Below are positions 1 through 30,500 of a DNA stretch of 64,000 bases, piece after piece; within the stretch, counting starts at the first letter, position 1, and every line of letters starts with the position of its first letter. The notes under the pieces were generated by a model. That model was not told the DNA's origin and made no database searches. It saw only the letters and a program-made list of their open reading frames with translations. The stretch is from Siphonodentalium dalli (taxonomy: Eukaryota > Mollusca > Scaphopoda > Gadilida > Siphonodentaliidae): positions 132,063,990 to 132,127,989 of the forward strand of contig CP136067.1 in assembly GCA_032622095.1 (NCBI GenBank), in the 5' to 3' direction. The position numbers were made by a program, and so were the translations under genes.

Positions 1-390
1 CTTTACCCAACAAACCGGCCAAAACCGGCCAAATAAAGCTTCAACAGCCTAAAATATCTTCGGTCTGTCTCAATAGAACCATACAAATATGGATATCATT
101 GGAACCGGCTCCTTGACCACATTGTGATAGTTACAGTTATGCCCTGTGCCAATGCATTCTCTTATATATGCGAGTCGACCATAGGTCGCCTCGCATATAT
201 AAGAGAATGCATTGGCCTAAAAAAAATATTTTTTTAACACTTTTTACCATTTTTTCTTACATTCTTTAACAATTTTATAATTTTTAATGTGTTAAGCCAA
301 TGCATTCTCTTATATATGCAAGGCGACCTATGGTCGACTCGCATATATAAGAGAATGCATTGGCACAGGGCCCTTCTGTTGGGTAAAGGG
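1..390. mobile_element. TTAA-flanked MITE, type 1 (piggyBac-like), copy A
   Basis: The left end is cut by the window: the terminus CCCTTTACCCAACA lacks its first two bases. The right end is the inverted TGTTGGGTAAAGGG followed by TTAA (391-394). CCC...GGG termini at a TTAA target are typical of piggyBac-like elements. The inside holds two near-perfect 70-bp hairpins (about 137-215 and 297-365), inverted relative to each other around an AT-rich spacer. It has no coding capacity. It ends 31 bp before synaptojanin exon 1. Confidence 0.8.
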
Positions 391-425
391 TTAAAAGGGT
401 TATGGTTCAATTATTTTTGTTTCAG

Positions 426-509
426 GTTATCTTTCTTGACGACGAGATTTCATCATTTATCCAGATCAGAGGATCAGTTCCTCTCTTCTGGGAACAACCA
501 GGAATTCAG
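426..509 (+). CDS. SYNJ1: Synaptojanin exon 1 in window (Sac domain)
   Basis: 84 nt, phase 0 at both ends, residues 1-28 of the partial protein. The acceptor is tttgtttcag and the donor CAG|GTATTG. It encodes [10 protein letters not shown] followed by the Sac-conserved block [16 protein letters not shown], which continues directly into [11 protein letters not shown] of the next exon, as in known synaptojanins. The intron that follows is 9.4 kb. Confidence 0.95.
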
Positions 510-3500
510 GTATTGTATAAAATTTGGTTCTTTCCTTGAGGCGGCACCAATTTTTATTAAAAAATCAAATTCGCCCATGGTGTTCAGTTTATGTAAGACT
601 TCTCATCGAACCGTTCTATCAGTAATAATAGTATGGGAAAATGAGAATAATTGAGATATTAAAGATACTCAGTCCAATCAGACGGTCCCCATACCATCAA
701 GATACAACAACAACATTTCTTCAAAATATGTTTTAGTTATCAGAATCAATTTATTGCAACATATATGTATATCTCCGTCAAAGGTATCTTGCCCTCTGAA
801 CTATATGGTATATTATCCCAAGTAGGAGGGGTTAACTCTCCGAGTTGAAAAAAACGGTACGAAATTCTATGGTACATATCCTCTGTCATGTTCATGACAC
901 GTGTAATCACGTGATTTCTGACACGTAGTGAAATATTCGCCATATTTTTTTCCCTCCTCACCATGGACGGGCGCAAAAAGAATCTCTCCAAGAATACGAA
1001 GCTAAGTTGCAGTTTGTATAGCAAAAACAGTTTTGTTTTTGTTTTATACAAACAACATTATTTCTTTGCTTATAGTTGAAAATTATGTACAATTCACATA
1101 CATGTAAAGATTACGCGGTTTGTTCCGAATATAAGATCGGAATCGGATGACTCGTTTCGTTTTAACGGACTTTGTCTTCTATAATTTTAATCGGTCAATG
1201 AATTAATATCCGTTGTTTATGCCGACGATATCAGAGTTTCTGGCCTATTAACGACAGAACATTCGAGGCACCATTGGATATGACTAAAGACGCTGATCGT
1301 TTTCTTTATAACAAATCTATGGCATACAGGTGGCGTTTAATTTAAGTTACCACGTGCGTTGACGGTGGTTAAAGGTATCACGAAATTAGGTGACTTACTT
1401 TCGAGTTCATTTTTTCGTTTTACGGCTTTATTTAGACGTTGACAATCATCGTCTGGTGTAAAACTGAAGACAAAAGCACTGTTTTAACGCTTGTGAAATA
1501 CGCTGATAGGATTGTAAAATCCTGAATGTCAATTTGAACCTTTTTAACACGGGATGATTAACAATGGAGCTGTTACTGTATTTGTGATTGTTCGTAATCA
1601 CATTAATTACTTTCACAGGACTGCTAATCGAGGTAAGAACAGGTTCATGAATCGCCTTCCCCGTAGCTCCCCTTGACGTCGTTTCCCTCGTTTCGAGGTC
1701 CCAAGAATAGAGAACGAAAATCGATATATAGGGTTCCTCTAATTGGCATAATTAGCACTCGGAGCGATAGTCACACCACACAGGACGCGGGTTGGGGCTA
1801 CCCATCGAACCCGTAGCTCACACGAGTTGCTTCCCCTAGGACACGGACAAACTCGCGGGGAAGGATCCAGAGAATTTTTGTTTGGGGACACCAGTTCTGT
1901 ATTTGAGTATGTGCCCATATAAATTTGGATGTTAAAATATTCAGTACTGGATACTTGATTGTGCAAATAAAGGCTCCATATTATAGACTATATATCATCT
2001 GCGGGCTGATGATTTGCATTACTAGTACATTTTGTTGAATTATAGAAAAATTCCTTGAAAATATGGAAGATCCAACTTGAATAAATACTATCTACATCGA
2101 ATTTGGGGACATTTGGGTCTCTATAGTTTGGGCACCCAAACCTGTAACAGGTATCAAAACATCCCTGGATCCTTCTCTGACTTGCCGATATATCGTGTTC
2201 CTCTAATTGGCGTGATTAGCACTCGGGGCGATAGTCACACCAAACAGGGCGCGGGTTGGGACTACCCATTGAACCCATTAGTCACATTGGTGCACTCCCT
2301 GGACTATCGAACGGGACGTCAATCTGCTTCCTCGGGTCGACCGTTGGCTGTTGACGTGCCCAGGACGGCTGTGATTCAGCTTTAATAACATTCAACACAC
2401 GCTGTCCATCGCTACAAGTTGTCATCTCGGGGTCAGCGCGGCTGGGGGATACACCCTCAGTGGTCCCTGACCATGCTCTCCGGTGCCTTATGATAATAGT
2501 GTGTGGGAATTTGGGCTAAAATTACTAGTAGAATGGCCATTTTACTTTGTCTCAATTCAAATTAGACATTTTCTCTAAAAATTATTAAGTTTACGCTATT
2601 ATTTGGCACCTGAAAGTTTATCCTCCATGCCTTCTGCCCCAGCTGGGCTTGGAATGGGATCACAGTTCACAGGCTTGTTTCCTCCTTATTATAAGTCACC
2701 ACTTCCGGGGGCTTGGCAGACAGGTTACTGGCCGCATTCTGGCCAACAGCTGCCAGTAACTTCGGGTTTGACTTTAAATGAAAACAAAAGATCTTGTTCC
2801 CTGACGCCATTATAGCAGGAAGCTTGCTTGGGAACTGGTACCTACTAACCTCCCATCGCCAGTTCGGTCGGTTGGATATCGGGATCGGTCGACCTGCTGC
2901 TCCATATATCTATATGTCTGTGCATGTATATGTATATATTGTAGGTTATCAGGTCAATCCAGTTCTTTGATTCAGATGCATAGCAGTGTTTTTGTTTCCT
3001 CGTGGCCTCCACCTGTTAGAAAATTCTATGCTTTACCATATAGTTCAGTGGGCAAGATACCTTTGACGGAGATACAATATTTTCCTAAATAAGTAAAATA
3101 TATATCTCCTAGAAGTATCTTGCCCACTGAAAGCTGAGCTCCCTCCCAGGGTTTCGCACCCACCCCGCTCACGAGGAATGTCCTACTGGGGATAAAAAAT
3201 ATGGCGAATACTTCACTACGTGTCAGAAATCACGTGTTTACACCTGTCATGAACATGACAGGATATGTACCATAGAATTTTGTACCGTTTTTTCAACTCC
3301 GAGAGTTAAGCCCTCCTACTTGTGATAATATACCATATAGTTCAGTGGGCAAGATACTTCTAGGAGATATATATTTTACTTATTTAGGAAAATATTGTAT
3401 TTCAGTACCATCAGTCGAAACTTTGGTTATTAAACACGACCACATATAGGTATCATTGACTCAACTATGGTATCAAATTTCCCAAAACTTGTTATTTATC

Positions 3501-6500
3501 AACAATTTGTTGAATATGGCCGTATTATCACTAAAGTATAAACAAATTTGACTGTATTACCACTTGATTTTAGAGTTATCCATCTTCATCCGCAATTTTG
3601 TCAGAGACCCTCCGTTTGGCCATGTGTTTCTGGGCCACATATTATTACACATCTCGAGAAATAACAAACTTCAAAAATCGATATCTGATCACTCTGAGCT
3701 TTGATGGGTGGGTTCCTCGACTGGAATCAAATATTTTTTACCCCCATAGCCATAGAAATAGTAATTTATGAGCGTCTGATCAGATTAAGTACCTTAATAT
3801 GTTGATTTTATTTATTTTTATTCTCAACAAATGATTTCATGTGAATATATGAGATTTACATTCACCAGGTTCTTGTGTAATAATTGCCAATTGGTATGTC
3901 TGACATCAAGCCTGAGTTTAGTGTGCCTATCATTTGCAAAATGAGATCCCCAGAGGGTGAATTTAGTGACGCTATCCCACATATCAGGCTAGCATCACTA
4001 AATTTACCCTCTGGGGATCTCATTCTGCTTAGGCCTCATCTTCTCTTGAAAATTTCTTTATTATAAATTTTTTATAGAAACTTCTTCACATAGATTCTAT
4101 ATTTTTTTTAGTTTAGTTTCTCTATATCCCCAAATTGGCAGATGACACATTGCATAATCGAGGTTCCCAATGGGTGTACATCACAATATTCACCATTTGG
4201 GAACTTCAAACTGAGTCTATATCTCCCATAGCAGATATGGCCTTACAGAATGAGGTCCCCAGAGGGTGAATTTTGTGATGTTAGCCTACTATGTGGGATA
4301 GCATCACTAAATTCACCCTCTGGGGACCTCATTCTGTAAATGACAGCCACACTAAACCCACTAAACTAGCATCACTAAATTTACCCTCTGGGGATCTCAT
4401 TCTGCTTAGGCCTCATCTTCTCTTGAAAATTTCTTTATTATAAATTTTTTATAGAAACTTCTTCACATAGATTCTATATTTTTTTTAGTTTAGTTTCTCT
4501 ATATCCCCAAATTGGCAGATGACACATTGCATAATCGAGGTTCCCAATGGGTGTACATCACAATATTCACCATTTGGGAACTTCAAACTGAGTCTATATC
4601 TCCCATAGCAGATATGGCCTTACAGAATGAGGTCCCCAGAGGGTGAATTTTGTGATGTTAGCCTACTATGCGGGATAGCATCACTAAATTCACCCTCTGG
4701 GGACCTCATTCTGTAAATGACAGCCACACTAAACCCAGGCATGTCTGACATGTCTGGGTTTTTTCCCCTCCTCCATCTAGAGATTAAAAAAAAAAATTGC
4801 TGTGGCCTTATATGTGGATATATGAGTTGATCCTATTTTTTGGTGCAACAGAATGATATCTGCTAAACTCAACTTCTCTGTTATTCGATCCTATATCTGG
4901 TAGTTTGAAATGTAATGCGTAAAAATTAGTCGCATATTTCTAGGAAATATTTCTCAGCTTAACCCTTTACCCAACAAACCGGCCAAAACCGGCCAAATAA
5001 AGCTTCAACAGCCTAAAATATCTTCGGTCTGTCTCAATAGAACCATACAAATATGGATATCATTGGAATCGGCTCCTTGACCACATTGTGATAGTTACAG
5101 TTATGCCCTGTGCCAATGCATTCTCTTATATATGCGAGTCGACCATAGGTTGCCTCGCATATATAAGAGAATGCATTGGCCTAAAAAAATCTTTTTTTTA
5201 ACACTTTTTACCATTTTTTCTTACATTCTTTAACAATTTTATAATTTTTAATGTGTTAAGCCAATGCATTCTCTTATATATGCGAGGCGACCTATGGTCG
5301 ACTCGCATATATAAGAGAATGCATTGGCACAGGGCCCTTCTGTTGGTTAAAGGGTTAAAGAGAGAGAGAGTATAACAGTACATTGGAACTGTTGTGTCAG
5401 AACTTTTCCGCAGTCACATGACATTAATAGCAACCACAAGCACACGAAGTGCGTTGGTGCTAAAACCTTAGGCGCAGGCGAATGATGACGTCATGTATTT
5501 TATTCCATATTTTCTATAGCGATGAGCCAAATTCCGGTGGCGTGTACGATTTTTTGTGAAATTGACCCGTTACTTCCGGTTAGCAACTGTGTGGAGATTG
5601 TAAAATTGCGGAATTGGAAGTGGACCAACGACATGAAAATAAAATTGTCAACTTCACAACTTCCAAAGAATTCCCATGTGATTTAGGCATATTAGTTTAA
5701 TTTAGATCAATTTCGTTAGTAACCTTAATGAAAACACCAGAGAAAACATTATGGCATGGTTCATGACGTCATTTATGCCTTGTTGGCTGTGTGGGCCAGA
5801 ATCCAGACACAATTGCACAATCCATGACAATATTTGTCCAGGGACCAGCCTAGGGGGCGACGTGGGCGAAATAGTCGCCCTGTGTGGCCGCAAGTCTCCC
5901 TGAAATGACGTCAGGGAGAAGTGGATGTCTCCCTAAAAAAATAAAAATTATTTTAGTTAAATTTTTAATCTCCCTGAATAATTGGTGACTGGATGATCTA
6001 CTGCTCAGCTTAACACTTCCAGTTTATCCTCACCCATGTAGAAAATCTATTGTGGACAATAATAACAGCTAAAACAATCAGTTCTAATGAATAGTTACTA
6101 GCGACAAATAGTCGCACTAACGCTCCACTTCTACCTGGTAAGCCCTCACTTCTCCTTATTTTTCCAAGAGGGAGAAGTCACTTCTCCCTATATTTTGACC
6201 CTTGGCTGGTCCCTGTATTTGTCATGTTGTCTCAACCGGGCCATTGCATAAATTATTCTTAGCAGTAAAAGAAAATTCGGGGTACAGCACGTATGATTCA
6301 TATTAAATGTGATGGTGCTAATTAATAGTTGTGGCACACATCTATAGAAGAGTTGGAAGCATAATATAAAATGATGCTACTGTAAAATAATTGTAGTCTC
6401 ATATCAATGTCAAGGGGTGGGATTTAACACCATGCTGCTGTGGTTCTTACATGGTACTTGAGTCATTTTGGGCTGATTGGCCACTCATCATTTTAATATG

Positions 6501-9500
6501 AATCATACGTGACACGTAGTGGAGCAACCACACATGCTGTATCCCGAATTTGCTTTTCATCACCAACGCAGGTCCCATCATAAAATAATTAATGCTGCAC
6601 CAGCACAGCTGCCGTCATGAAATGGTTAATGCTGCACCAATGCAGCTCCCACCATGGAAGGGTTAATGCTGGACCAGCACAGCTACCTGTCATGAAAGGG
6701 TTAATGCTGCACCAGCACATATCCCATCATAAAATAGTTAATGCTGCACCAACGCAGCTCCCGTCATGAAATAATTAATGCTGCACCAGCGCAACTCCCG
6801 TCATGAATGAGTTAATGCTGCACCAACGCAGCTCCCGTCATTAAATAATTAATGCTACACCAGCACAGCTCCCGCCATGAAAGAATTAATGCTGCACCAG
6901 CGCAGCTCCCGTCATGAAAGGGTTAATACTGCACCAACACAGCTCCCGTCATAAAAGGTTAATGCTGCACCAGCACAGCTCCCGTCATGAAAGAGTTAAT
7001 GCTGCACCAATGCAGCTCCCATCATCAAATAATTAATGCTGCACCAACGCAGCTCCCGTCATGAAATAATTAATGCTGCACCAGCGCAGCTCCCGTCATG
7101 AAATAGTTAATGCTGCACCAACGCAGCGCCCGTCATCAAATAATTAATGATGCACCAACGCAGCTCCCGTCATGAAACAATTAATGCTGCACCAGCTCAG
7201 CTCCCGTCGTGAAAGAGTTAATGCTGCATCAACGTAGCTCCGTCATCAAATAATTAATGCTGCACCAGCGCAGCTCCCGTCATGAGAGAGTTAATGCTGC
7301 ACCAACGTAGTTCCCATCATCAAATAAGTAATGCTGCACCAACGCAGCTCCCGTCATGAATGGGTTAATGCTGCACCCGTCATGAAATAATTAATGCTGC
7401 ACCAGCGCAGCTCCCGCCATGAAATAGTTAATGCTGCACCAAACGCGGGCTCCCATCATCAAATAATTAATGCTGCACCAACGCAGCTCCCTTCATGACA
7501 TAATTAATGCTGCACCAGCGCAGCTCCCGTCATGAAAGGGTTAATGCTGCACCAACGCAGCTCCCATCATCAAATAGTTAATGCTGCACCAACGCAGCTC
7601 CCTTCATGAAATAACTATGCTGCAACAACGCAACTGCCGTCATGGTCCCACCATGGAAGGGTTAATGCTGGACCAGCGCAGCTACCTGTCATGAAAGGGT
7701 TAATGCTGCACCAGCACATATCCCATCATCAAATAATCAATGCTGCACCAACGCAGCTAATGAAATAATTAATGCTGCACCAGCTCAGCTCCCGCCATGA
7801 AAGTTAATGTTGCACCAACGCAGCTCCAGTCATCAAATAATTAATGCTGCACCAGCGCAGCTCCCATCATGAGAGAGTTAATGCTGCACCAACGCGTAAC
7901 TCCCATCATCAACGCAGCTCCCGTCGTGAAATAATTAATGCTGCACTAGCGCAGCTCCCGCCATGAAATAGTTAATGCTGCACCAACTCGGGCTCCCATC
8001 ATCAAATAATTAATGCTGCACCAACGCAGCTCACTTCATGAAATAATTAATGCTGCACCAGCGCAGCTCCCGTCATGAAAGAGTTAATGCTGCACCAACG
8101 CAGCTCCCATCATCAAATATTTAATGCTGCACCAACGCAGCTCCCTTCATGAAATAACTAATCCTGCACCAACTCAACTACCGTCATGAAAGGGTTAATG
8201 CTGCCCAGCAGAGCTCCCGTCGTGAAATGGTTAATGCTGCACCAGCACAGCTCCCGTAATAAAAACATTAATGCTGCACTAGCGCGTCTCCCATCGTGAA
8301 AGGGTAAATGTTGCACCTACGAAGCCAACATGACGTAAATGACGTCATGAGCCGTGGCATTTCATCTCGTTGTTCCACTTCCGATTCCGCAATTTTAAAC
8401 AGTTGCTAATCGGAAGTCACGTGTCAATTTCGCTAAATAGCATACACTCTTTCCTGAAAATCGTTCCATCGTATAGAAATATATATAGAAAAATTATATG
8501 ACGTCATCATTCACACACGCCTTAGGTATAAACACCCACCAGGGTGGTTGCTATTACTTTGTGGCTGTCTATATCTTCATGCTCCCAATCAATGTTTTGC
8601 AGACTTGATGGCTAAATAAATATGATGCTGCATGGAAACTAATTTTTAATAATGGTGATGGTGCCTAAAATAGTGATGCTGTCCTTTTTATTCAAAAATT
8701 AATAAATGTGACATCACTATTATTCGGCACTCGAGAGTATCATAAAGAAATGTCACATTACCTGTTTCATTTTGCTTGTCAATTTTTTATTTTTTTTTTT
8801 AATTTCGACTATTATTTTAGACCAAGCCTTCTCAGTCCACAACAGCTTGGGATATCGGTTTGGTTGATGCGGTTTTGGACTGAGTCCCATCCCGTTACTC
8901 TTCTATAATGGAATTTATGCCCATAATCATGAGCAGGAGTTATCTTATTTGTATGTCTTCAGATTAGGCAGGGTTTCTGCTAGGGATAAAATGTTGGGGC
9001 CCCTTTTCTTGTGGTTAGGGAAAAACACAATTGCCATCACTGCCCTGGATTAGGACAAATGGAAGCTTTGCATATATGAGCATAAAGGTCAGCCTTTCCC
9101 AACCATGATGATATCAGAGGTCCATTAAATGTCAAAGCAACGAGACTTATAAGTAAATAAAGCCATGTTTCCCAGAGAATTTTGACTTGTCGCGATATCA
9201 GAAAATGCATGTAACGGTAAACAATACATCAAACGATCGTATCATCGCTATACATTTCTCTATCACGGTAGATGGTATATCATTTTGAAGACAGATTAAT
9301 CACGGACATGTCAGATGATTAATCACATTGAGGGGTTTACGTGAATGCCCGGTCTCCATGTGTACAGTAATGCCCTAATTATTCGACTTCTTAACCACAG
9401 CAGAATTATGGGTAACTTTTCAGGATTTAGTCGGAAATATGGCTTGTTGCCATTCACCGGAAAGCTCTCGCCGAGAGCTTTCCGATGAATGGCAACAAGC

Positions 9501-12500
9501 CATATTTCCGACTAAATCCTGAAAAGTTACCCATAATTCTGCTGTGGTTAAGAAGTCGATTAATTAGGGCATTACTGTACATGAACCGATATCCCAAGCT
9601 GTTGTGGACTGAGAAGAATTGGTCTACTAGTATTTGTGAATGTATTCAGATATCATCTGAAAATCTCAATGTACATGTATAAGCTCAAATGTCCTATTAT
9701 ATCTTCGATGATTGACTTTTTTTCTATGAAAATATATATATTATAATTAAAACTCATATATGATCTGCCACAGATACACTGTACCTGGTTCTATGCATAG
9801 TTTTAATAGCCATTTTGAGAAATCAGGGATTAAATTTTCTGCAGGGTTGGAGAGTTGATGGCTTAATTTTGTATTTGTGTAAATTCCACAGGTTGGTTCT
9901 CACAAAGTGAATATGTCTCGTGGTCATGAGGTCTCAGCACCAGCGTTTGAGCGGCACTTCAACATGACAAAACAACAGTACGGTGATCAGATTATCGTTA
10001 ACCTCCTCGGCAGTAAGGAGGGCGAGAGAAAACTCTCTCAGGCATTCCAGGTTTGTAATCTTGAAGGAATTATTTTCTGAATAAAAAAACATAGTATTTT
10101 TTTCAGGTTTAATACTTATAAAATGTATTAAAAATACCCATTTGTCCCATGTTAAAGCCACATGGCAGTTTGCGCTCCAAAACACACCTTATAATATTCT
10201 CTGTTGAATTTTTCCCCGTATCGAAATAGGTTGATAAATACCTGAACTACCTTTCTATGAGTGTTATATGTCCCATAAAGATGCATTAAAGTCATAAAAA
10301 ATACAACTTCGAACATGATAATAATAATAATAATAATAAATAGTTTTTATATAGCGCTTTATCCCATATGGCCCAGAGCGCTTACATTCCTACTAGTACC
10401 CTGCCCTCTATCACACGTGATATACATACATCTATACACACCACATACCTATAGATATACACATACATCAAAATAATTAAACAACATCTGATGATTTGGT
10501 CCCGATCAAATACACAGGTCCCGATCAAATACACAGGTCCCTGACATAAAATTAGTCATAACACTAAAAGTACATGGCCATTTCGATAAGAAATAAGAAT
10601 TTGTTCATGCTCACTGAGTTAAGCACATATGAAGCAATGAACACTCCGTCCGTGCTTCCATTACTGTGATATATATATTGGAAAAGGTTCCTAACTCCTG
10701 AAATGTAGAATTTCGGCATTTCCTCAAAACCATGGCCAGAAATGCAGCAATATATGAAAACAAAACAAAATAATCATAGTCATATTTTGGAATAAATAAT
10801 TGAAACAATGTTCAAATTTCAGGTAGTGTACGACCAAGTGAAAGCAATGGTGAAGTATCTTGCAAAATGCCAAAATTGTATAAGTCACCGCTAGGATACC
10901 GTCACCACAACTAACAGATGGAAATTAAATGGACCGTAACCGGATGTTGGGTCTTAATAATTTATAAATAATTTAGAGTGTATGCAAAGGGCCAAATAAA
11001 ATTTATAGCCAAAGGGTTTAATTTAGAAATTTAAATAGTGTATGTGTATGTTGCCAAAGGAGAGGAAGGCATAATGTATGTTTGTGTAGTCTTAAGAACA
11101 GTGTGTAGTATGTTCAAAAAGTCAAAATATCACCGATATAATCATCAGTTCCAACAACCAGTGACAATTCCTCTAACCCTTTACCCAACAGAAGGGCCCT
11201 GTGCCAATGCATTCTCTTATATATGCGAGTCGACCATAGGTCGCCTCGCATATATAAGAGAATGCATTGGCTTAACACATTAAAAATTATAAAATTGTTA
11301 AAGAATGTAAGAAAAAATGTTAAAAAGTGTTAAAAAAAGATTTTTTTTAGGCCAATGCATTCTCTTATATATGCGAGGCGACCTATGGTCGACTCGCATA
11401 TATAAGAGAATGCATTGGCACAGGGCATAACTGTAACCATCACAATGTGGTCAATGAGCCGGTTCCAATAATATCCATATTTGTATGGTTTTATTGAGAC
11501 AGACCCAAGATATTTTAGGCTGTTGAAGCTTTATTTGGCCGGTTTGTTGGGTAAAGGGTTAAGGGAAGAATCGGAAAGAGAAGTGATTTTAAAATGACGA
11601 TAACCTTAGTTCTTGTATCTTACAGAGTCATCACAAAGCATCTCTTTTCCACCAATCTATTCCTCACATCGCATACGATTATCATTCGGAGTGTCCGCGA
11701 GGAAACCTCAAGAACATATGGAAACTAATGGACAAACTGAAGAAATCAATCAATGAATATGAATACTTCTACAGCAAGGACGAACATATGGACAGGTAAA
11801 TAACAAGGACGAACATATGGACAGGTAAATAACAAGGACGAACATATGGACAGGTAAATAATATTGTCTTAACATATGGACAGGTAAATAATATTGTCGT
11901 AACATATGGATAGGTAAATAATATTGTAACATATGGACAGGTAAATAATATTGTCATAACATATGGATAGGTAAATAATATTGTCGTAACATATGGACAG
12001 GTAAATAATATTGTCGTAACATATGGACAGGTAAATAATATTGTCGTAACATATGGACAGGTAAATAATATTGTCGTAACATATGGACAGGTAAATAATA
12101 TTGTCGTAACATATGGACAGGTAAATATAATATTGTCGTAACATATGGACAGGTAAATAATATTGTCGTAACATATGGACAGGTAAATAATATTGTCGTA
12201 ACATATGGACAGGTAAATAATATTGTCGTAACATATATGACAGGTAAATATAATATTGTCGTAACATATGGACAGGTAAATAATATTGTCGTAACATATG
12301 GACAGGTAAATAATATTGTAACATATGGACAGGTAAATGATATTGTCGTAACATATGGATAGGTAAATAATATTGTTGTAACATATGGATAGGTAAATAA
12401 TATTGTCGTAACATATGGACAGGTAAATAATATTGTCGTAACATATATGACAGGTAAATATAATATTGTCGTAACATATGGACAGGTAAATATAATATTG

Positions 12501-15500
12501 TCGTAACATGGACAGGTAAATATAATATTGTCGTAACATATGGACAGGTAAATATAATATTGTCGTAACATGGGCAGGTAAATAATATTGTCGTAACATA
12601 TGGACAGGTAAATAATATTGTCTTAACATATGGACAGGTAAATAATATTGTAACATATGGACAGGTAAATAATATTGTCGTAACATATGGACAGGTAAAT
12701 AATATTGTCGTAACATATGGACAGGTAAATAATATTGTCGTAACATATGGACTGGTAAATAATATTGTCGTAACATATGGACAGGTAAATAATATTGTCG
12801 TAACATATGGACAGGTAAATAATATTGTCGTAACATATGGACAGGTAAATAATATTGTCGTAACATATGGATAGGTAAATAATATTGTCGTAACATATGG
12901 ACAGGTAAATAATATTGTCGTAACATATGGACAGGTAAATAATATTGTCGTAACATATGGACAGGTAAATAATATTGTCGTAACATATGGACAGGTAAAT
13001 AATATTGTCGTAACATATGGACAGGTCAATAATATTGTCGTAACATATGGATAGGTAAATAATATTGTCGTAACATATGGATAGGTAAATAATATTGTCG
13101 TAACATATGGACAGGTAAATAATATTGTTGTAACATATGGACAGGTAAATAATATTGTAACATATGGATAGGTAAATAATATTGTCGTAACATATGGACA
13201 GGTAAATGATATTGTCATAACATATGGATAGGTAAATAATATTGTCGTAACATATGGATAGGTAAATAATATTGTAACATATGGATAGGTAAATAATATT
13301 GTCGTAACATATGGACAGGTAAATGATATTGTCATAACATATGGATAGGTAAATAATATTGTCGTAACATATGGACAGGTAAATAATATTGTAACATATG
13401 GATAGGTAAATAATATTGTCGTAACATATGGACAGGTAAATGATATTGTCATAACATATGGATAGGTAAATAATATTGTCGTAACATATGGTTAGGTAAA
13501 TAATATTGTCGTAACATATGGATAGGTAAATAATATTGTCGTAACATATGGATAGGTAAATAATATTGTCGTAACATATGGATAGGTTAATAATATTGTC
13601 GTAACTTATGGATAGGTAAATAATATTGTCGTAACATATGGATAGGTAAATAATATTGTCGTAACATATGGATAGGTAAATAATATTGTCGTAACATATG
13701 GACAGGTAAATAATATTGTCGTAACATATGGACAGGTAAATAATATTGTCGTAACATATGGACAGGTAAATAATATTGTCGTAACATATGGACAGGTAAA
13801 TAATATTGTCGTAACATATGGACAGGTAAATAATATTGTCGTAACATATGGATAGGTAAAAATCATTTTATCTCAACATATGGACAGGTATGTCATTTTA
13901 TCTCAACTTATGGACAGGTAAGTCATTTTATCATAACCTATGGATAGGTGAGTTATTTTATCTCAACATTTGGACAGGTAAGTCATTTTATCTCAACATT
14001 TGGACAGGTAAGTTATTTTATCTCAACATTTGGACAGGTAAGTCATTTTATATCAACATATGCACAGTCATATCTTATAGCTTCTTATTCTTCAAATATA
14101 TGCAGAAACGACTAGGCATTCTCTGTTTCTGTATCCTGGATGGCAACAAGCCATATCATTGATGGCAATAGTGAATGTGAGTAAAAACGCTTTGCTTCCA
14201 AAAACACTTAATTTACATGGACAATTGGCGTGGATTATTTCTATTCTCTTTAACACATACAGCATACTAGTATGTCATTTCAAATCAACTGATATATTTC
14301 TGGTGGCAATGACGATAAACACTTGCATCTACAAAAACAGCAATGTTTTAATTCAGCATGTAAGCGCAAACACACTGAATCGTTGATGATGCAATGCTTT
14401 TCAGTGACACATTATGATGTCAACTGACTGGTGTGCTATTCCATCTGCGAAATAACATAGTTCCCACTCCAAAGAACCTTTTATTTGATATTCTGTAGGT
14501 TCCCGAGATTGGCATCAGATTGATGTACCTTATGTGGGCCACAAATTAACGGCAAATGCGATATGTGGTCCAAAGAAGGAGCTCAACCTAACTACGGATC
14601 TCAGAAACACACATGGTGGTGATAACCTATATGTGACCCGCCATATCAAATCCAGTCGGAAGTCGGGATTTTTTTACCCTGTGCCAATGCATTCTCTTAT
14701 ATATGCGAGTCGACCATAGGTCGCCTCGCATATATAAGAGAATGCATTGGCCTAACAATTTTTTATCATTTTTTTAAAATAAATGTTTCTGACAATTTTT
14801 AGGACATAAAATAAAAAACTTCCATTACCCTGCAGGGAGCCCCACACATATATAGAAGCATATAGAAGAGTGTCGTCTGCTCATGTTTGTCTGGGGCTCT
14901 GTATGGGTGAAATTATAAAATTGTTAAAGAATACAAGAAATAATTATTAAAATTGTAAAAAATTGTTAGTCCAATGCATTCTCTTATATATGCAAGGCGA
15001 CCTATGGTCGACTCGCATATATAAGAGAATGCATTGGCACAGGGTAAAAAAATCCCGACTTCCGACTGGATTTGATATGGCGGGTCACATATACACCCGC
15101 TTTTCAAAGAAAAGTCTAAATGAATTTTTTTTAGAATGTTCGCAATCAGGAGCCTTATATAGAGAGTTCCTCGGGTTGATTTACTGCCATAACTTATGAG
15201 AATTAAACATAAGTTCTCAGAAGAGTGTGTTATTTGTCAATGTATTCGCAACATAATCAACCACATGCCTTTAGCGATGTCCACTTCAATATCTTTCAGA
15301 ATAAGGCAAAAATTAAAAAAATTGAATATCCCCAAAGAGATTTATTGTCTCTCAAAATGCTTCATTAGTGGTCAGCGTTAACTGGCAAATGTACTTATCT
15401 TTGTTCATCAATCCCTATTGTCCACTTTGATATCTTTCAGTATTAGGAAATAAGAATTAGTTTCCCGAAGAATGGTTCAGTAATAGTCAGCGTTAGCGAA

Positions 15501-18500
15501 TAAATAAAATTATATTCCTTTATCATTTCCTATCGGTTTTGGGAGATACGTTGGTGATATAGACTTTAATCTGTGGATCGGGTATGGGAATATGTCAGAG
15601 GGGAAAAGGGCAAAGGCACCTAAAAAAACAGCCATTATCCTGCAGGGAGCCCCACACATATATAGAAGCATATAGAAGAGTGTCGTCTGCTCATGTTTGT
15701 CTGGGGCTCTGTATGGGTGAAATTATAAAATTGTTAAAGAACACAAGAAAAAATTATTAAAATTGTTAGGCCAATGCATTCTCTTATATATGCGAGGCGA
15801 CCTATGGTCGACTCGCATATATAAGAGAATGCATTGGCACAGGGTAAAAAAATGGGCTGACACGGACAATTGTCAGATTCCAAATTCAAATTTTTGTAGG
15901 TTGTCAGGCTCTGCTTTGAAACTGTCTGATATAATATCAGGTTGAAATATTGACGTATTTTAAAGGCAAATATCACTGCTAATGTGATATATTTTTCAAA
16001 ATACATTTATATAGTCTGCTGTTAATGAAATTTATTCTATTGGAGAGTAGTTTTGAAATATTTGTTTTGCCAAAATCTGGGTTTTTCAAATGTATGATTA
16101 TTAGAACTTGGATGTCTACAAATTATTGGAATTGGAAAATTTATGGAACTAGTTTTTCCTCCCGGTCAAGTTATGACATACTACTGTCCTCCGTTCTGTA
16201 CAGTCATATGTTCGTAATGATAGGCCTAAAAAAGTTACAATTGTTAAAAAGAGAAACATAATTGGGGGATAATACATCATTAGTTTCACTTGGCATTATT
16301 TTGGGTGATAAAAAAGACATGTCAGGTCTCAGTTTGAAATGTCAGACCATGTCTGTTTGGTGGCTGACAAAATGTCAGTCAGTCAAATAAAATTTATTTT
16401 AAAGCTTGCCGCTGCTCCTTTAGTGGAAATCCCTTCACAATGTTTACCACACACAAGTGAAATATACAGTAATGTCCTAAATAATCGATTATTTAGGGCA
16501 CTACTGTACATGACTCTTTATTTCTCTTGATTCAGGCATCAAACAGGAGCAATCAGGACCAATTGTCTCGACTGTCTGGATCGGACTAACGCTGTACAGA
16601 CATTAATTGCTCTCCAGGTAAAGTTTACTTGTTTGGCGATGGCAGAGGAGTATAGCTAAGTTATTAGTTACAACTAACATCATCTCTTCATGATTCATGT
16701 ATTTATTTCTGCAAATCCATATACTGATTGCTCATTTGTTATCTTGTTTGTGCTTGGGCAAGAGGTATACACATACGTATGCATAACATCCACTGTCGTA
16801 ACGTGTGCATAAGACCATCTTTCATCAACATAAAGTTATATGTGTGTGCACAATGACCAAGAAGTCCGAAACAGACATGTATGCATATAATAACCGAACC
16901 GTTATAAATGTATGTATATAGCATTATAGTTTCTTGTAGCTCAATGTGTAACTCCCTTCATGTTCATGAGATTTTCCAGTCAAACATAAACAAAATAATG
17001 GGCAAATTATAGCAACCACTAGCATGTGAAGCGCACGTTGGTGCTCTTAGGAACAGGTGATTTATGACGTCATATAATTTTTTGTCCCCCGAAAAATTTA
17101 TTTTTGGGGGACTATAGAAACGGGGTCCGTTCGTCCGTCCGTCCGTTCGTCCGTCCATTTGTCCGTCCGTTCGTCCGTCCGTCCATCACACTTTTGAGTA
17201 CCTTCATGGTGTAATCATCTCCTCCCACAGTTTTCATCCTAGAGATTTGAAACTTCAGAATATTGTTGCCCATATATTGAAGATGTGCAACATGTATATA
17301 GATGACGGAAAAATTATTTTTTGACAGAGTTATTAACCCTTTTCGACTTAGAAAATTTCAACATTTTTTATAATTTTCTGTATGAGGGTACCTTCATGGT
17401 GTAATCAACTCCTCCTACAGTTTTGATTGTAGATATTTGAAACTTCAGAGTATTGTTATCCACATATTGGAGATGTACAACATGTATATAGAGGACGGAA
17501 AAATTATTTTTTTACGGAGTTATTAACCCTTTTCGACTAAGAAAATTTCAAAATTTCAAACAAATTTCTTTAACAAAGCGGCATCGACTTGCCACTTTTT
17601 CGGGGGACACTGTGGTCAGCTGACCTTTTATTTCTATAGGGATGAGCCAAATCCTGGTGGTGTGTACGTTTTATTGTGAAATTGACACGTGACTTCTGGT
17701 TAGTATCTATCTGGAGATTACTGTATTGCGGAATCGGCAGTGGACAACGAGACGAAAATAAAATTGTCAACTTCACAACTTCCGAAGAATTCCCATGTGA
17801 TTTAGGCTTATTAGTTTAATTTCGACCAATTTCGTTAATTGGCTTAATGAAAACCAGAGAAGACGTCATGGCACTGTTCATGACGTCATTTACATCATGC
17901 TGGCTTTGCGGGCCAGAATCAAGACAAGATTGCACAATCCATGACAATACTTGTCATGTCGTCTCCACCAGGGCCATTGCATGCTGTTACATAAATTATT
18001 CTTAGTGTTATGTCGCCTCAAATGTTAGGCAGTGTGGTTGCTCCACTTCGTGTCACGTACGATTCATATTAGTCATGATCTTAGGCGCAACCTAAAGGGA
18101 ACCCCAACACGAACTACTCTCATGTATAATATTAATATATATAATGTTTATGTCTCTATAGCGATGTCACAGATGTGCGCTTCTTGCAAAACTTTCATAT
18201 CTGGTGGAATATTCCGACATAAAATCGAACCGCAAAGATGAACAAATATTCAATTTCAATAGATATTCATAACTGATTTGTCAAACCAAATATAAATTAA
18301 ATTCTATGGTCGAATCAAATATTATTTCGAATTCAAAGACATTTTAATTGTATCAGATTCTTTAAAGGTACACAATCCAATTCGATTGTCACCATATCAT
18401 CAGATTCCAACAACGACATTTTTTGAAATGCCGCTTCTGTTATCAGAATCGAATAATTGCCCAAAAAATAATGCTAACCACAGTCAACTATGGTATAAAA

Positions 18501-21500: not shown

Positions 21501-24500
21501 AGCACGCTGTTGTATTATAAGCTAGAATAATTCAATTAAAGGGTGTCACAATGACAGCCTATTGTGACGTAGTAGAGTGAGTGAGTTAATGAGATCAGTA
21601 AACTGAGTCACTTTAGCAGCGTCTTCCAGACTGAACAGGTGTATTTCGCCAAATTTCCAGCACAGTTTTTGTGAAAACTGGGCATAACAATTAATATAAG
21701 ATTGAATGTATTTAAGATAACATGTCAAAACGTCATATAACATTTTCGAAAATTAAGATGTATAGCACTTGACATACAATGCTTCCAGAGCGTTTTGCCC
21801 AAAGGGTTTTATCTCTGGTTTAACACAGGTTGTTAAGTGTAGACTTTTGTTAGCCGGGAGCCGCTGGGTTATTTTTGTGTATTTTATATGTAACACTGTA
21901 TCAGAGTTTAGATTGTTTATAACATAATGTGTATGCCACATGGAAGCATGTCTTTTTGCTTAATTTATTAATTTGGTTTAGTCGATAAACTCTGAATCGT
22001 TCCACGGCTTCCGGTTTGTGTATGACTGTACATATCTAAATACCAATAAAGACGCACGCTATCTGCTATATATGTTTTAGTTGTATCTAGTCTAGCGTAG
22101 ACTGCAACATTCCTCCAGTTGACATAGCGCCTGAATACTATCTTATCAATTTCACGTACCCGAACAAGCCATAGCATGTCTTTAACCCTTTGAATGCCAG
22201 GTCGATTTTTTTATCAACCCATATACCCTGTGCCAATGCATTCTCTTATATATGCGAGTCGACCATAGGTCGCCTCGCATATATAAGAGAATGTATTGGC
22301 CTAACAATTTTTTATCATTTTTTTTTAAATAAATGTTTCTGACAATTTTTAGGACATAAAATAAAAAACATCCATTACCATGCAGGGAGCCCCACACATA
22401 TATAGAAGCATATAGAAGAGTGTCGTCTGCTCATGTTTGTCTGGGGCTCTGTGTGGGTGAAATTATAAAATTGTTAAAGAATACAAGAAATAATTATTAA
22501 AATTGTAAAAAATTGTTAGTCCAATGCATTCTCTTATATATATGCGAGGCGACCTATGGTCGACTCGCATATCGTGGGGTTAGAGCAACAAGGTACCATG
22601 TCGACTTTTTGATGAAAATTAGTTTTTTTGTTATTTGGGATGCAAATTAATTATACTTTCATGTGTAAAAATACTGGAGATCAATTTGACTAATTAATTA
22701 GTCTACTCATTAATTACCACAGGGTACCATCTTGGTTATTGCCAATATGGTTAGAGCAACAAGGTACCATGTGGGTATTGTTGCATGCAACAAGGTGCTA
22801 TCTTGGATATGGCACCTTGTTGCTGATAAGAAGTAATTAAATTGGTATCAATTTCTACCACTTAAAACTTATAGCACCTGGTTGTTGGCTTGTTAACAGA
22901 TATCACAACATGTGTTTTTGTATAATGATAAGGAAGCCTGTACATATAAAATCTGAGTGTTTGTTGGAATGTAACAGACATTGTTCACTTAACTAGGAGT
23001 TCACTAGGACAATGGAGTATACTACATTCTTTACCTCACACATACTAACTGACTGATTCTGAAGCACTGAAGATAAACACTGGCATTTTTAAAGGTATGT
23101 TATTATGGTTTTTATACCCTTTGTCTTGTATATTGTGCACTTCGAATGTATAATGTCCAATTAGCAGTTAATTCCAATCGGTGCTAATGGCTGACAGGTG
23201 AACTTAAAGGTATAAAACATGTGATCGCTCAATTTAATTTGGCATTTTATTGAGTGTTTACCCATTTTGTCATACTAGTAATATGCATCTATGTAATAAT
23301 CAAGTCAATTATTTTAACTTCTGCCTAAATTATGAGACCACCACCTGTAATTTACAGTAAATTTTGACGTCCATGTCAACATTTCTAGTCAATAGCTTGT
23401 TTACAATGTATATTTGTGGTAATTTGTCGTGTTGTCCCAAATATTTTCTTTAAATCTATGGTTGTGACCAATGAGATAATTTATTATTTACACTTATTAT
23501 TTCAGATGTCTGCTCAGTATCAAGGTGATGTGGATTCTGCCTGGTCAAACGTATCAGACTCTGTATTTGACGACCAGATAGATAAATTTGAGATGTCACA
23601 GAGGAGCTTGACTTCTACTCTTGATTCGGAAAGTTCGGATGATGTACCATTAGCTCGACTTGCCAAGAGACTCAAAAATAAAAAAACCGTTTCATGTACT
23701 GACGAGGATACCCAGGAGTCATTTAGCGATGACATAGAAAGATGCTGTGTACTCATCAGATTCTGACTGGTCAAACGTATCAGACTCTGTATTTCACGAT
23801 TAGATGGATAAACTTGAGATGTCATAGACGAACTTGACTTCTGCTGTTTACACAGATAGTTTGGATGATGTACCATTAGCTCGACTTGCCAAGAGACCAA
23901 TGAAAGATGATTTGAAATCATCAGATTCTGACAATGTTATACCTCATGAAAAATCGGAAAAGGTGGGACAGAGTAAAACATTTCGCAAACAGAAGCGTAA
24001 ATGCATAAAAATAAGTAAGGTTTAGTCTAAACTTTAGAGCACAAGAATTGATTTTTACCAGAATCAATCGAGTCAAAGATGAGATATATTCTGGTAAAGA
24101 ACTATTCGCGTGCTCTGACCGACTAAGAGCACAATTGATCCCACATTATGCAATCAACTGGAAATGTGCTGTTGGGCGTGTTTTGACCAAGACGCACAAT
24201 CCGTGTGCTGGCCGCGGTTGGACACAATAGCCAGTTAGCCACGCCCAACAACATGATTAACATGAACTAATCGCCATTGAATGTGAATAGATATGTCCAA
24301 AACAACACGGACTGGTCCCACTTTGAAGCGCCAGTGCGATTTGGCTGTTATGAGTTGCGTGTGCCTAACAATGGGATAATCACTGAACTATTACTTCACC
24401 AGCCTTGGGAATTGGTGTGCTTTACCAAAAATCAGGGAATGATTGCAACAATGGGATTGTGCTCTAAAAATCAATACACACCAAGTAGTTGACTCAAAGA

Positions 24501-27500
24501 TTGCGAAGAAGAAATCAAGTAGAAACTCAAAAATATGTGGTGTGATAGATAAGTATCACCATCATAGCCATGACAATTTGTTAACAAGTAATCACCGCAT
24601 CCGAGTATCAGTCAGGTCCGATGGAAACTGTTTTATGCATGCCGTTTTGCCACAGCTGAGTAATGATCAACCATCTATTAATGTCGATAGTCTTAGAGAG
24701 TCATTGTCTATTCATCTGATGGACAACTACCCACACTATAAACAGTTTGTGGTTACAGAAGATGAATCAGATGAGCGCCAGCAAGAGGACAATTACAATC
24801 ACGAAATACAAAATCTTAGGAACAATTCAACATGGAAAACAGAAAATAATATAAATATTTTGCATGAAACTTGCATGGTTAACCAATAATTATGCTAATG
24901 AATACTAATTGATCTGGTTATCTTTTTTGGCTTCAATTATGTGATGAGATGTTTGCAAAAAATGAATGCAGCAGGTGTCATGAGATGGAACCTTGTTGCA
25001 TTAAGAATATTCCAAAACGAGTTATGCAACAAGGTACTATCTTATAAATGACCTTGAATTCACGTATTACCCTTGACCGTTAACCTTCAAAATTTGGTGT
25101 AAACTAAAGTCCATCAGGGTCAATAATATGGCAACAAAGACTCAATACGCAGACCAATGGTATTTGTTAATCGATAACTTTAAACTTTGTTTTGCGATTA
25201 TCTCAGAACTTTAAAAAACCTACATGGTACCTTGTTGCTCTAACCCCACGATATATAAGAGAATGCATTGGCACAGGGTAAAAAAATCCCGACTTCCGAC
25301 TGGATTTGATATGGCGGGTCACATATACACCCGCTTTTCAAAGAAAAGTCTAAATGAATTTTTTTTAGAATGTTCGCAATCAGGAGCCTTATATAGAGAG
25401 TTCCTCGGGTTGATTTACTGCCAGTCTGCAGATGTGAGGCCTCAAAATATGGTGCAGGACATTTGCAGAATGATGTCCCCAGGGGTGAATTTAGTGACAC
25501 TAACCCATTATACTATGAACTACTCCTGACCAACCTTCAGCGGCTAGCATCTAGACCTGGACTACATACCGTAATCATAACTTATGAGAATTAAACATAA
25601 GTTCTCAGAAGAGTGTGTTATTTGTCAATGTATTCGCAACATAATCAACCACATGCCTTTAGCGATGTCCACTTTTTTTTTTACAATTTTTTACAATTTT
25701 AATAATTTATTCTTATATTCTTTAACAGACTTATTTTGTAGGTTTAGGGCCGATGAGATCGGCCCCTGGCACTCAAAGGGTTAAGGTTTTATTCCGCACA
25801 TATTGGTGTAGGCACATGCATTCAACGGAATCCCAGCCAATACATATTATTGTATACCTCTAGTGAAATACAAGCCATAACTACTTCGTGTTAACATTGT
25901 CATCAAAAAAGATTACGTAGATTACGTCAACAATCCGCTTCAGGTGATGCCCCCGATCATTACTGGTTATTCAACAGACATAAATCACAATAAAGGTCAT
26001 TATAATATCAATGAATGTGCCAGTCATGGCTTGAACTCAAGTCTGAGTTTAGTGTGCCTATCATTTGCAGAATGAGGTCCCCAGAGGGTGAATTTAGTGA
26101 CCCTGTCCTGCAAATTTCCATAGAATCTTCTTCACATAGATTCTATTTTGTTTTTAGTTTAGTTTCTCTATATCCCCAAATTGGCAGATGACACATTGCA
26201 TAATCGAGGTTCCCAATGGGTGTATATCACAATATTCACCATTTGGGAACTTCAATCTGAGTCTATGTCTCCCATAGCAGATGAGGCCATGCAGAATGAG
26301 GTGCCCAGAGGGTGAATTTGGTGATGCCAGCCATCTATTCATCCTCTGGGGACCTCATTCTGCAAATGACAGGCACACTAAACTCAGACTTGATTGAACT
26401 CATCCGACACAATCATGTTGAATAAATACAGAACACAACTTTCATCATAATCTTGAATCTTTTATCAAACTCATTGCAAACCACATATAGTACAAATTTT
26501 GCTTGAGCTCCGCTCTTGCGAAATATATCCTTGCACCATCCGCAACTTATTTGATAAAATATTCTCGATTAAGATGTGTCACAGTGGCCCGGGGAATCAC
26601 TTGGTTTTGAGGTTGGTGAGTACGGTGCATTCAAAATTGCCAAGGCGAGTGCAAATGCACAAGAACATAATATATGAGGAACTGACACAAAATATAGTAT
26701 GTTGACTCTTTCGAGCATATGCTAGTTTATTTTTAAAACAAGTTGATACCTTATTTGTTCGGAAATACTCAGTAGTTTTCTATAACATTCTGACCAAAGT
26801 TTCCAGTCGGAGGTTCGTGGAATACACCAGCCCATACATCAAGGAGAATCCTTCGACTGACAACTTTGGTCAGAATTATAGAGCAAACAACTGTGAGTTT
26901 GGACACGAATGAGGTTCCAGCTTGTTTGAAAAATTGAATAGCATATGTTCGTAGTCATCAAAATGATGTGTAATATATCATTATCCTAGTTTATTACCAT
27001 TTTCCTCATTTCTGGTGGCACTTGAGATCGCTTCGGCCATTTTGAATGCATGATACTCATCAACTCGAAACCATGTGATTCCCCACCATGTGTGTTTTGT
27101 TCTGTCTGCTAATATTACATGCTTGTTCCTTGAGTTGAGTTCATGCTGTGCCATATTTACAAATCCGTATGCCATACATATTCCATACACATCCCATTGA
27201 TGTCACGTGACATAAATGATGTTTGCCTCAAGTATGAAACTGGAACTTTAAGGGTATTTTTTCTCTTTGCAGCTCACTGATGCCAGCCGGTCTGGACAGC
27301 GAGCGATACAGAATAATTTCCTTGACAGTGGCAAACAAGACGCCATCGATGCCCTGCTAACTGGAAACACATTACGAGGAGATCTGTCTGATAAAGTACA
27401 AGCTCTGCTCGGAAACAGAGTTCTACATGGTAAATGTGAATGGATTCTCCCGTTCAGTTATAAACCAAACATTGGAATTGTCTATTCTTCATTTGTAGGG

Positions 27501-30500
27501 GTTTTTATATCATATAAGTGGTTGCATGGATGTAATTGTTTAGGATTTTTCCTGAATTCAGGATTTTCTGTACAATTCAGCTGAACAATTTGAAAAAAAT
27601 TCTTTTTTGCTTTATTTGACCCTTATGAGTTGAGAAAAGGCTCGACTTCCCAGATGTGTATGTGAATTTCTATTTTAGTGTCATCACCGATACTTCATGG
27701 GATGGTGTCAGACACTCTATATCCAGACTTGTACATGTATGTGAATTTCTATTTTAGTGTCATCACCGATACTTCGTGGGATGGTGTCAGACACTCTATA
27801 TCCAGACTTGTACATGTATGTGAATTTCTATTTTAGTGTCATCACCGATACTTCGTGGGATGGTAAATAGATACAGGGAATACTCTTTGAAATCCAAGCT
27901 GCGTATTTCTGTTGGAACATGGAATGTGAACGGAGGAAAACACTTTCGTAGCATCACGTTTAAACATCAGTCAATATCCGATTGGCTATTAGATGCCCCG
28001 AAACTAACTCAGCAAACTAACACAGGTATGTCTATTAATCTCAAACCATTCTGTTGGGGAAACTATTTGAATGATTATCAGGTTTATTTCTCCATCTGTA
28101 CAAGTTGCAGTCTCGTTGAAAAGCCGACGAAAATCCTATCAGATTTACAACTCTGGATCTGTGATTGAGATTTATATTCTAAGACGATGCGGCTTTCCCA
28201 AGATGACAAAATAAATTGTTTCCAAATATGGAGTGCACGTCTGGCATAATAAACATTTGTGAGAATCGTAGTATTTAGTTGTAGTTATAAAAACAACAAG
28301 ATGCAAAGAATAATAAGTAATAAATATTGATGACTGATAAAAACTCGAAAATTATGTCTACTATAGATTGTGATGAGTATAATGAATTATGAATATGTCG
28401 CCTGTATTCTGTATTATAAAATTTGTTATGTTTCGCTATGCATATGAAAATTGTCAACACATCATTGACTTCTGATCTCGCAATTTAAATATAACCTAAT
28501 TGATATGAGCAATGTTTGTAATTGTTATTAGCTTTTTATAGTGATTGGATTCCGCATTGAATTGATCTTTTATGTCACTAGCCAATGAAATGGAGGGAAT
28601 CCCATCAATTTAAATTGTGCCATGGTGCATGCTGACATTGGGGGGGGGGGGGGTTGCTCAGCTGGTAAGGTGAATGTAACATTAGGTATACATAATGCTC
28701 CAGCGATACCGAAGCTGGGTTGATTCCAGGGCTCATATTCACTAGTCCAAATTTAACCTTTTAATTACTGAATGGATTCACCAAGTTTCCGTCGACATAA
28801 ACTAGCTAGTGAAATCAGTTTGGATAATGCTGTTTTACGTTGAAGTCCCGTGTATATATCGTTCTGAAGCAGACTTTATGCCCAGATCCAGTGGTGGGAT
28901 ATTTCGTCGATTTTAATTGATTTTTCCCTATATATTAATACATGATTTTATATATATCGGAAAGAGTGACATCTTACGGTCATAATGATGTATTATAATC
29001 TAACTTTCATGTTAAATTATGCATAGATTATGAGTAACTTCGGTTTGTTTACATTGTACACTTACTGTCACTTCGTGATGTCAAATGAGTCGTATTCTTG
29101 TAAACATTCTTATAAAATATATTTTTCACATTTCATTTATTACTTTCAGTTGAAACTCTTTTGGATTTCCGAACAAGTATAATATTTTCTATGGAATAAA
29201 CTGGTTTACTGTCACAATTACATTTTAATACAGTTGGTGTGGGTTTTAGGTGATATTTACATCAACAACGCTAAACCCCGATATAGAATGGTATATAGAC
29301 AGGACTTTGACATAAAACAGCATTATCCCAAATGATTTCACTGGCTGGTTTACGTTTAAGGAAAGTTTGACTAATATTCACCAACTGGGTTTATATTTTG
29401 TCCAGGTAGTTTATAATGGGCGAAGCTCAACTCGAAGCTACCTGTGTTCGTTGATCGGATTAACCCTTTACCCAACAGAACGGCCCTGTGCCAATGCATT
29501 CTCTTATATATGCGAGTCGACCATAGGTCGCCTCGCATATATAAGAGAATGCATTGGCTTAACACATTAAATATTATAAAATTGTTAAAGAATGTAAGAT
29601 AAAGTGGTAAAAAGTGTTAAAAAAAGATTTGTTTAGGCCAATGCATTCTCTTATATATGCGAGGCGACCTATGGTCGACTTGCATATATAAGAGAATGCA
29701 TTGGCACAGGGCATAACTGTAACTATCACAATGTGGTCAAGGAGCCGGTTCCAATGATATCCATATTTGTATGGTTCTATTGAGACAGACCGAAGATATT
29801 TTAGGCTGTTGAAGCTTTATTTGGCCGGTTTTGGCCGGTTTGTTGGGTAAAGGGTTAACATCATGGCGGTATAGGATTTTCAAATCAATCGGATTTGATG
29901 GCTATCATAAATTGGCCTCAATTCTTCAACATTCATTCTGCAGAAAGATTTAGTCTGAGAGCTATCTACTGATTTTGATCTGATCTGTTTGTTATTGTTA
30001 TATAATATTTTAGGATTAATAAAAGATGGTGTTGACTTTAACAAGCCTGTGGATATTTATGCAATTGGCTTCGAGGAATTGATTGACTTAAATGCAAGCA
30101 ATATCATGAAAGCAAGGTAAGCACAACATCAACAAAATCTGAAATGAATTTTTTATAAATAAAAAATGCGGGAAATTTGAATATTTGCCATTAATAATAT
30201 GAATTGGACGTGACATGTAGTGGAGCAACCACACATGATGTGCCTCAAATTTATGTAACATCATGCAGTGGTCACGACGGAGACGACATGCCAAATTGAC
30301 AAGACGTATCGTGGATTGTAAAATCTTGTCTGGATTATCGTCATGACTTCTTCATTTTTTGTTTTCATTAAGCTGACCAACGAAATTGGTCTAAATGAAA
30401 TTAATAGACTTAAATCACATGTGAATTCTTCGTAAGTTCTGAAGTAGTTACTTTCATTTTTATCAGGATGCTTCATTTCCAATTCCGCGTTTTTTGCAAT

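Follow-up and report, generated by a model that had tools for sequence, protein, structure and literature searches.

Minisatellite-like duplications of exon/intron boundaries, both 5' and 3', have been described in amphioxus under the name of 'mirages', and AG/GT is retained in many, but not all, of their units (PMC3087553). Amphioxus genes with mirages are Adh3, BflGb6 and BflGb9, to which TnC and PGBD5 were added by a further paper (PMC3087553, PMC3902484). According to the first report, the Adh3 data and RT-PCR of globin genes suggest that mirages leave regular splicing intact, but their AG/GT signals could still serve as cryptic sites; in addition, the Adh3 mirage shows somatic instability, and one globin mirage is stated in a supplement legend to be aberrantly assembled in the draft genome (PMC3087553). 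In human IFI6 (6-16/G1P3), a minisatellite supplies several donors, two of its downstream units serving in splicing, according to a paper that cites Turri et al. 1995 for this minisatellite (PMC4526556). Tandem duplication at exon-intron boundaries can also lead to intron gain or lengthening (PMC4974935, PMC2812944, PMC3087553).

Here, we describe a donor minisatellite in a synaptojanin gene. The sequence-only reading of this DNA, which knew of no described donor minisatellite of this size in a conserved neuronal gene, is not upheld on this point, because the amphioxus mirages (PMC3087553, PMC3902484) and the human IFI6 donor minisatellite precede it. The synaptojanin array was not found in the open-licence literature searched, in which the one paper that combines synaptojanin and minisatellite concerns a mouse model of Down syndrome and uses each term once.

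Synaptojanin gene and its two duplicated boundaries

A tblastn search of the window (the whole 64-kb stretch of DNA that was analysed) with human synaptojanin-1 yielded the ordered exons of a synaptojanin gene on the plus strand, besides weak chance matches. The first seven exons, joined by splicing donor 1 to 16536, form 332 codons with no stops and match Syja_N and SAC1 structures, and their last part matches human synaptojanin-1 5-phosphatase structures; the array exon (11626-11795) searched alone had no match among solved structures. Exo_endo_phos2 was matched by all three of the 5-phosphatase exons submitted to Pfam, and DUF1866 by one later exon. The order of SAC domain, inositol 5-phosphatase and DUF1866, as given by tblastn, is that of synaptojanin, and the assignment of the gene made from the letters alone is thus borne out by the domain and structure matches. 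The exon that carries the array had been called exon 3. The array does start at its boundary with the intron, but the exon is the third only among those inside the window. The features around the array are as follows:

9892-10050, plus strand: exon upstream of the array exon
11626-11795, plus strand: SAC-domain exon from which the array was founded; length 170 nt, phase 0 to 2, bounded by AG and GT, with an open frame; one of the joined exons that together match Syja_N
11796-11803, plus strand: authentic donor GTAAATAA, the only in-frame donor; U1 duplex -8.3 kcal/mol
11796-11853, plus strand: pair of fresh units of 29 bp, both identical to the exon over its last 21 bases
11854-13855, plus strand: units 3-69, the homogenised body, with a unit length of 30 bp, or of 27, 31 or 32 bp in variants
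13856-14061, plus strand: transitional unit 70, the older units 71-76 with the old spacer TCATTTTATCTC, and a decayed end
16536-16617, plus strand: next exon, with the SAC catalytic motif; joins donor 1 in frame

TRF reported a minisatellite at 11783-14041 with a period of 30, 75.6 copies and 93% matches. The array starts in the last bases of the exon, spans 11796-14061 in the intron and occupies 48% of this 4.7-kb intron. Its units, which comprise 27 different types, span the exon/intron boundary, with between 13 and 21 bases of the exon followed by the beginning of the intron. The commonest unit is AACATATGGACAG/GTAAATAATATTGTCGT (the slash marks the boundary), in which 13 exon-end bases are followed by the donor and then by a spacer. 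Exact copies of 21 exon bases followed by GTAAATAA are carried by the first two extra units, whereas later units share only the 13 exon bases, some with changes. The earlier description of the first units as repeats of the last 20 coding bases needs correction, in that the exon part is 21 bases long and of this length in the first two extra units only.

A scan allowing up to three substitutions identified 76 donor cores, one of which is the authentic donor, with first intron bases from 11796 to 14038. This count replaces the sequence-only one of 70-75, and the picture of dozens of competing donors in a row is supported. GT is kept in all 76 donors, AG/GT in 75 and AG/GTAA in 71, in line with the statement that almost every later unit keeps AG/GTAA. 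The 19-base consensus core had 61 matches in the window (at most two mismatches), all of them inside the array, and a mean of 0.00 in 100 shuffled sequences. The hexamer AGGTAA occurs 85 times on the plus strand of the window, including 14 times outside the array. Long open frames of up to 540 aa are present on the minus strand at 11769-13867.

The same gene contains a second boundary duplication, a 3'-boundary mirage at 27657-27864:

27657-27814, plus strand: two extra 79-bp copies of the acceptor TTTCTATTTTAG and the exon start, with acceptors before 27679 and 27758
27837-28025, plus strand: exon with duplicates of its start and acceptor upstream of it (tblastn, frame check)

The two copies are identical to each other at 78 of 79 positions, and the three acceptors are identical in sequence, with AG kept in all three. 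Only the last acceptor keeps the frame; the two extra ones break it. At both the donor and the acceptor mirage, the viable site adjoins the full exon and gives the longest intron.

Duplicated junctions are not unusual against the background of this window, in which tandem repeats are abundant (33 TRF rows). When a duplicate was defined as a copy matching at least 26 of 30 bases within 3 kb, one of the 15 donors and one of the 13 acceptors had one nearby, compared with 151 of 1,000 random positions; several exon ends in these junction lists were set by eye. With the stricter requirement of 30 of 30 bases, the numbers were 2 of 27 junctions and 26 of 400 random positions, one acceptor in the set being misplaced. 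Splice junctions in this window are not duplicated more often than random positions: two boundaries caught in repeats are within what chance allows, and an attraction of duplication by splice sites finds no support here. The array unit had no match in viral contigs.

Other repeats were also observed. A palindromic element with arms CCAATGCATTCTCTTATATATGC has 51 matches on both strands between 149 and 62016 of the 64 kb (at most two mismatches); in several places, two palindromes lie about 148 bp apart, and the element resembles a very dense MITE. A slightly longer form of it had no match in viral contigs. A near-perfect inverted repeat is located at 9361-9581 (110-nt arms, 98% complementary, 1 nt between them), and TRF detected a tandem duplication at 3989-4737 (377 bp, 2.0 copies, 99% matches) and a large minisatellite with a 37-bp unit at 6561-8325, which lies in the intron before exon 9892-10050 and touches no located exon. 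An open frame in a synaptojanin intron (24443-24886) matches an OTU-like cysteine protease (Pfam, E 1.5e-05, 25.9 bits, cut-off 23.3) and is possibly a mobile-element remnant.

Layers of the array and conservation of its donors

The origin of the repeat from the exon end, as originally proposed, is supported by the exact exon-end copies that adjoin the exon and by the start of the array inside the exon. The two 29-bp units next to the exon represent a recent duplication at the boundary. In units 3-69, one unit type is present in 23 identical copies and another in 16, and a higher-order FRFD/FRFJ pattern is seen in units 47-57. Units 71-76 have a spacer different from that of the body, and the donor is CAG/GTAAGT in four of these six. 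The homogenised interior with diverged edge units (70-76) is the pattern of concerted evolution also described for mirages.

The old and young consensus sequences agree in all 17 columns of the exon end plus GTAA and differ in 6 of the 13 spacer columns, as counted by eye from the unit alignment. The contrast between the 17 and 13 columns gives a Fisher value of 0.003, to be read as that of a contrast picked after looking, with columns treated as independent. Agreement in the core with divergence in the spacer would be expected if the exon end, which is selected both for its coding content and for its donor, were the recurrent template, and this is the simplest interpretation.

Comparison within layers (units 3-69 and 71-76) revealed no clear extra conservation of the array donors relative to the spacer. 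Across the array, only 1 of 304 cells in the AG/GT columns is changed, but nine spacer columns of units 3-69 likewise have no change in 67 units. In units 71-76, 8 of 102 cells are changed in the 17-column core and 5 of 78 in the 13-column spacer (by eye); AG/GT is changed in none of 24 cells, whereas the remaining columns have 13 changes in 156 cells, and these AG/GT counts are too small to exclude a degree of constraint. The array donors may simply persist because their units are of recent origin and have been homogenised, and because the founding exon end is under selection.

Donor choice and competing explanations

Reading past donor 1 gives AGG TAA, with the TAA at 11797-11799 directly after R. 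Explicit splicing of donors 2, 3 and 4 led to this same stop codon in all three cases, and donors 5-76 must share it because the TAA precedes donor 2. The prediction that donor 1 alone keeps the frame is therefore correct. When donor strength was expressed as the pairing energy with the 5' end of U1, 47 of the 76 donors, including donor 1, were equal to donor 1, 24 were weaker and 5 were stronger. The five strongest donors (units 72-76, 13918-14038, -10.6 to -12.1 kcal/mol) are also the nearest to the next acceptor. Since 46 later donors are equal and five are stronger, strength cannot explain the choice of donor 1, which is probably favoured by position. The discriminator is likely to be exon definition, because the exon measures 170 nt with donor 1, compared with 199 nt with donor 2 and 2.3-2.4 kb with the strong distal donors. 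Predicted local RNA folding was not convincingly better than that of shuffled sequences in either of two stretches (z -0.77, with 42 of 200 shuffles as good, and z -1.60, with 8 of 100 as good).

We consider it fairly probable (roughly 0.75) that the array is a mirage that arose from the exon end and its 5' splice site, was expanded by repeat turnover and has no selected function, the first donor being used through exon definition. A tandem duplication of the exon end with its donor would have started the minisatellite, and ordinary repeat turnover would then have expanded and homogenised the units. Exon definition would pair donor 1 with the acceptor that lies 170 nt upstream of it; the spliceosome would then take donor 1, the remaining array would be removed with the intron, and leakage would be limited to a small fraction sensitive to NMD, if any. 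The array is thus most likely a mostly silent intronic repeat. In favour of this explanation are the anatomy and frame of the array, the failure of donor strength to single out the first site, the lack of clear extra conservation of the donors and the core-spacer contrast between the old and young consensus sequences. Further points in its favour are that amphioxus mirages of the same anatomy are reported to be spliced normally and that a second boundary, an acceptor, is duplicated in the same gene. Classical experiments with duplicated 5' splice sites can favour the intron-proximal site; such a preference would here select a poisonous donor and counts against our main explanation.

Regulated or length-dependent poison splicing, in which later donors are used, the AGG TAA stop leads to degradation and the repeat number tunes the synaptojanin dose, was another possibility raised from the sequence alone. 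The position of all 75 later donors behind one in-frame stop, the better U1 pairing of five distal donors than of the authentic one and the unchanged AG/GT (0 of 24) of the six old units would fit this explanation. However, the strong distal donors would require an exon of 2.3-2.4 kb, clear selection on the array donors was not observed, and amphioxus mirages are reported not to disturb splicing (PMC3087553, PMC3902484). We therefore regard it as unlikely. A splicing rheostat, in which donors would compete by number and by strong distal U1 sites so that the repeat number sets the productive fraction, or an AG/GT ladder in which wrongly chosen donors would be corrected through a further splicing step that restores the exon end, is improbable. 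If the rheostat were true, the productive fraction of synaptojanin mRNA would depend on the number of repeats, which might differ from cell to cell, as is reported for Adh3 (PMC3087553).

Recursive or corrective splicing would operate by joining donor 1 to the AG of a unit, which regenerates the exon end and a donor; mis-splicing at donor k could then be corrected in a further step that joins donor 1 to the AG at the junction. AG/GT in 75 of the 76 units would permit this, and the sequence ahead of the AG in units 71-76 has a pyrimidine share (0.65-0.70) within the range of the 13 acceptors located in the gene (0.45-0.90). In units 2-69, however, this share averages only 0.49, a purine-rich stretch lies between the pyrimidines and the AG, and a 4.7-kb intron has no need of such a process. 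Exon-junction complexes, moreover, suppress re-splicing of this kind, and we consider this explanation very improbable. We give equally little credence to an assembly error, by which the array would be absent or wrong in length or unit order. One globin mirage was indeed reported to be misassembled in the draft genome (PMC3087553), but the 27 unit types, the layers of divergence and the patterned higher-order repeat fit biological turnover, although the exact copy number is doubtful. Finally, a protein-coding array, suggested by minus-strand open frames reaching 540 aa, is rejected as extremely unlikely, because a consensus unit without TTA, CTA and TCA on the plus strand opens the minus frames automatically and the 27-, 31- and 32-bp units shift frames.

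Comparison with known systems

The array represents a natural competition assay with 75 further donors in a row behind one exon, of which 46 are equal to the first in U1 pairing and five are better, while the first alone is viable. The fidelity of donor 1 use would gauge how far exon definition or position prevails over the strength of donors, and the acceptor mirage would make 5' and 3' choices comparable in one transcript.

In IFI6, the alternative donors encode isoforms, whereas every later synaptojanin donor sits behind a stop. The IFI6 minisatellite has a unit of about 12 bp in about 26 copies. Cases of intron gain or lengthening by duplication share with the array a duplicated segment that carries a (proto-)splice site (PMC4974935, PMC2812944, PMC3087553). 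In the synaptojanin gene, by contrast, an existing intron has been lengthened and no new exon or intron was seen.

The amphioxus mirages resemble the array in being boundary-spanning tandem repeats with AG/GT kept, a concerted interior and excluded cluster edges (PMC3087553, PMC3902484). Polymorphism, somatic instability and splicing have been reported on the amphioxus side; the synaptojanin array is described from one sequence. BflGb6 has six and three units in two haplotypes (PMC3087553, PMC3902484), compared with 76 donors in synaptojanin; the array is thus long relative to these globin mirages. The synaptojanin gene also differs in having a separate acceptor mirage beside the donor array in one gene. 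The array is therefore of a kind already known, the mirage, and what is new is its number of units, the gene in which it lies and the pair of mirages.
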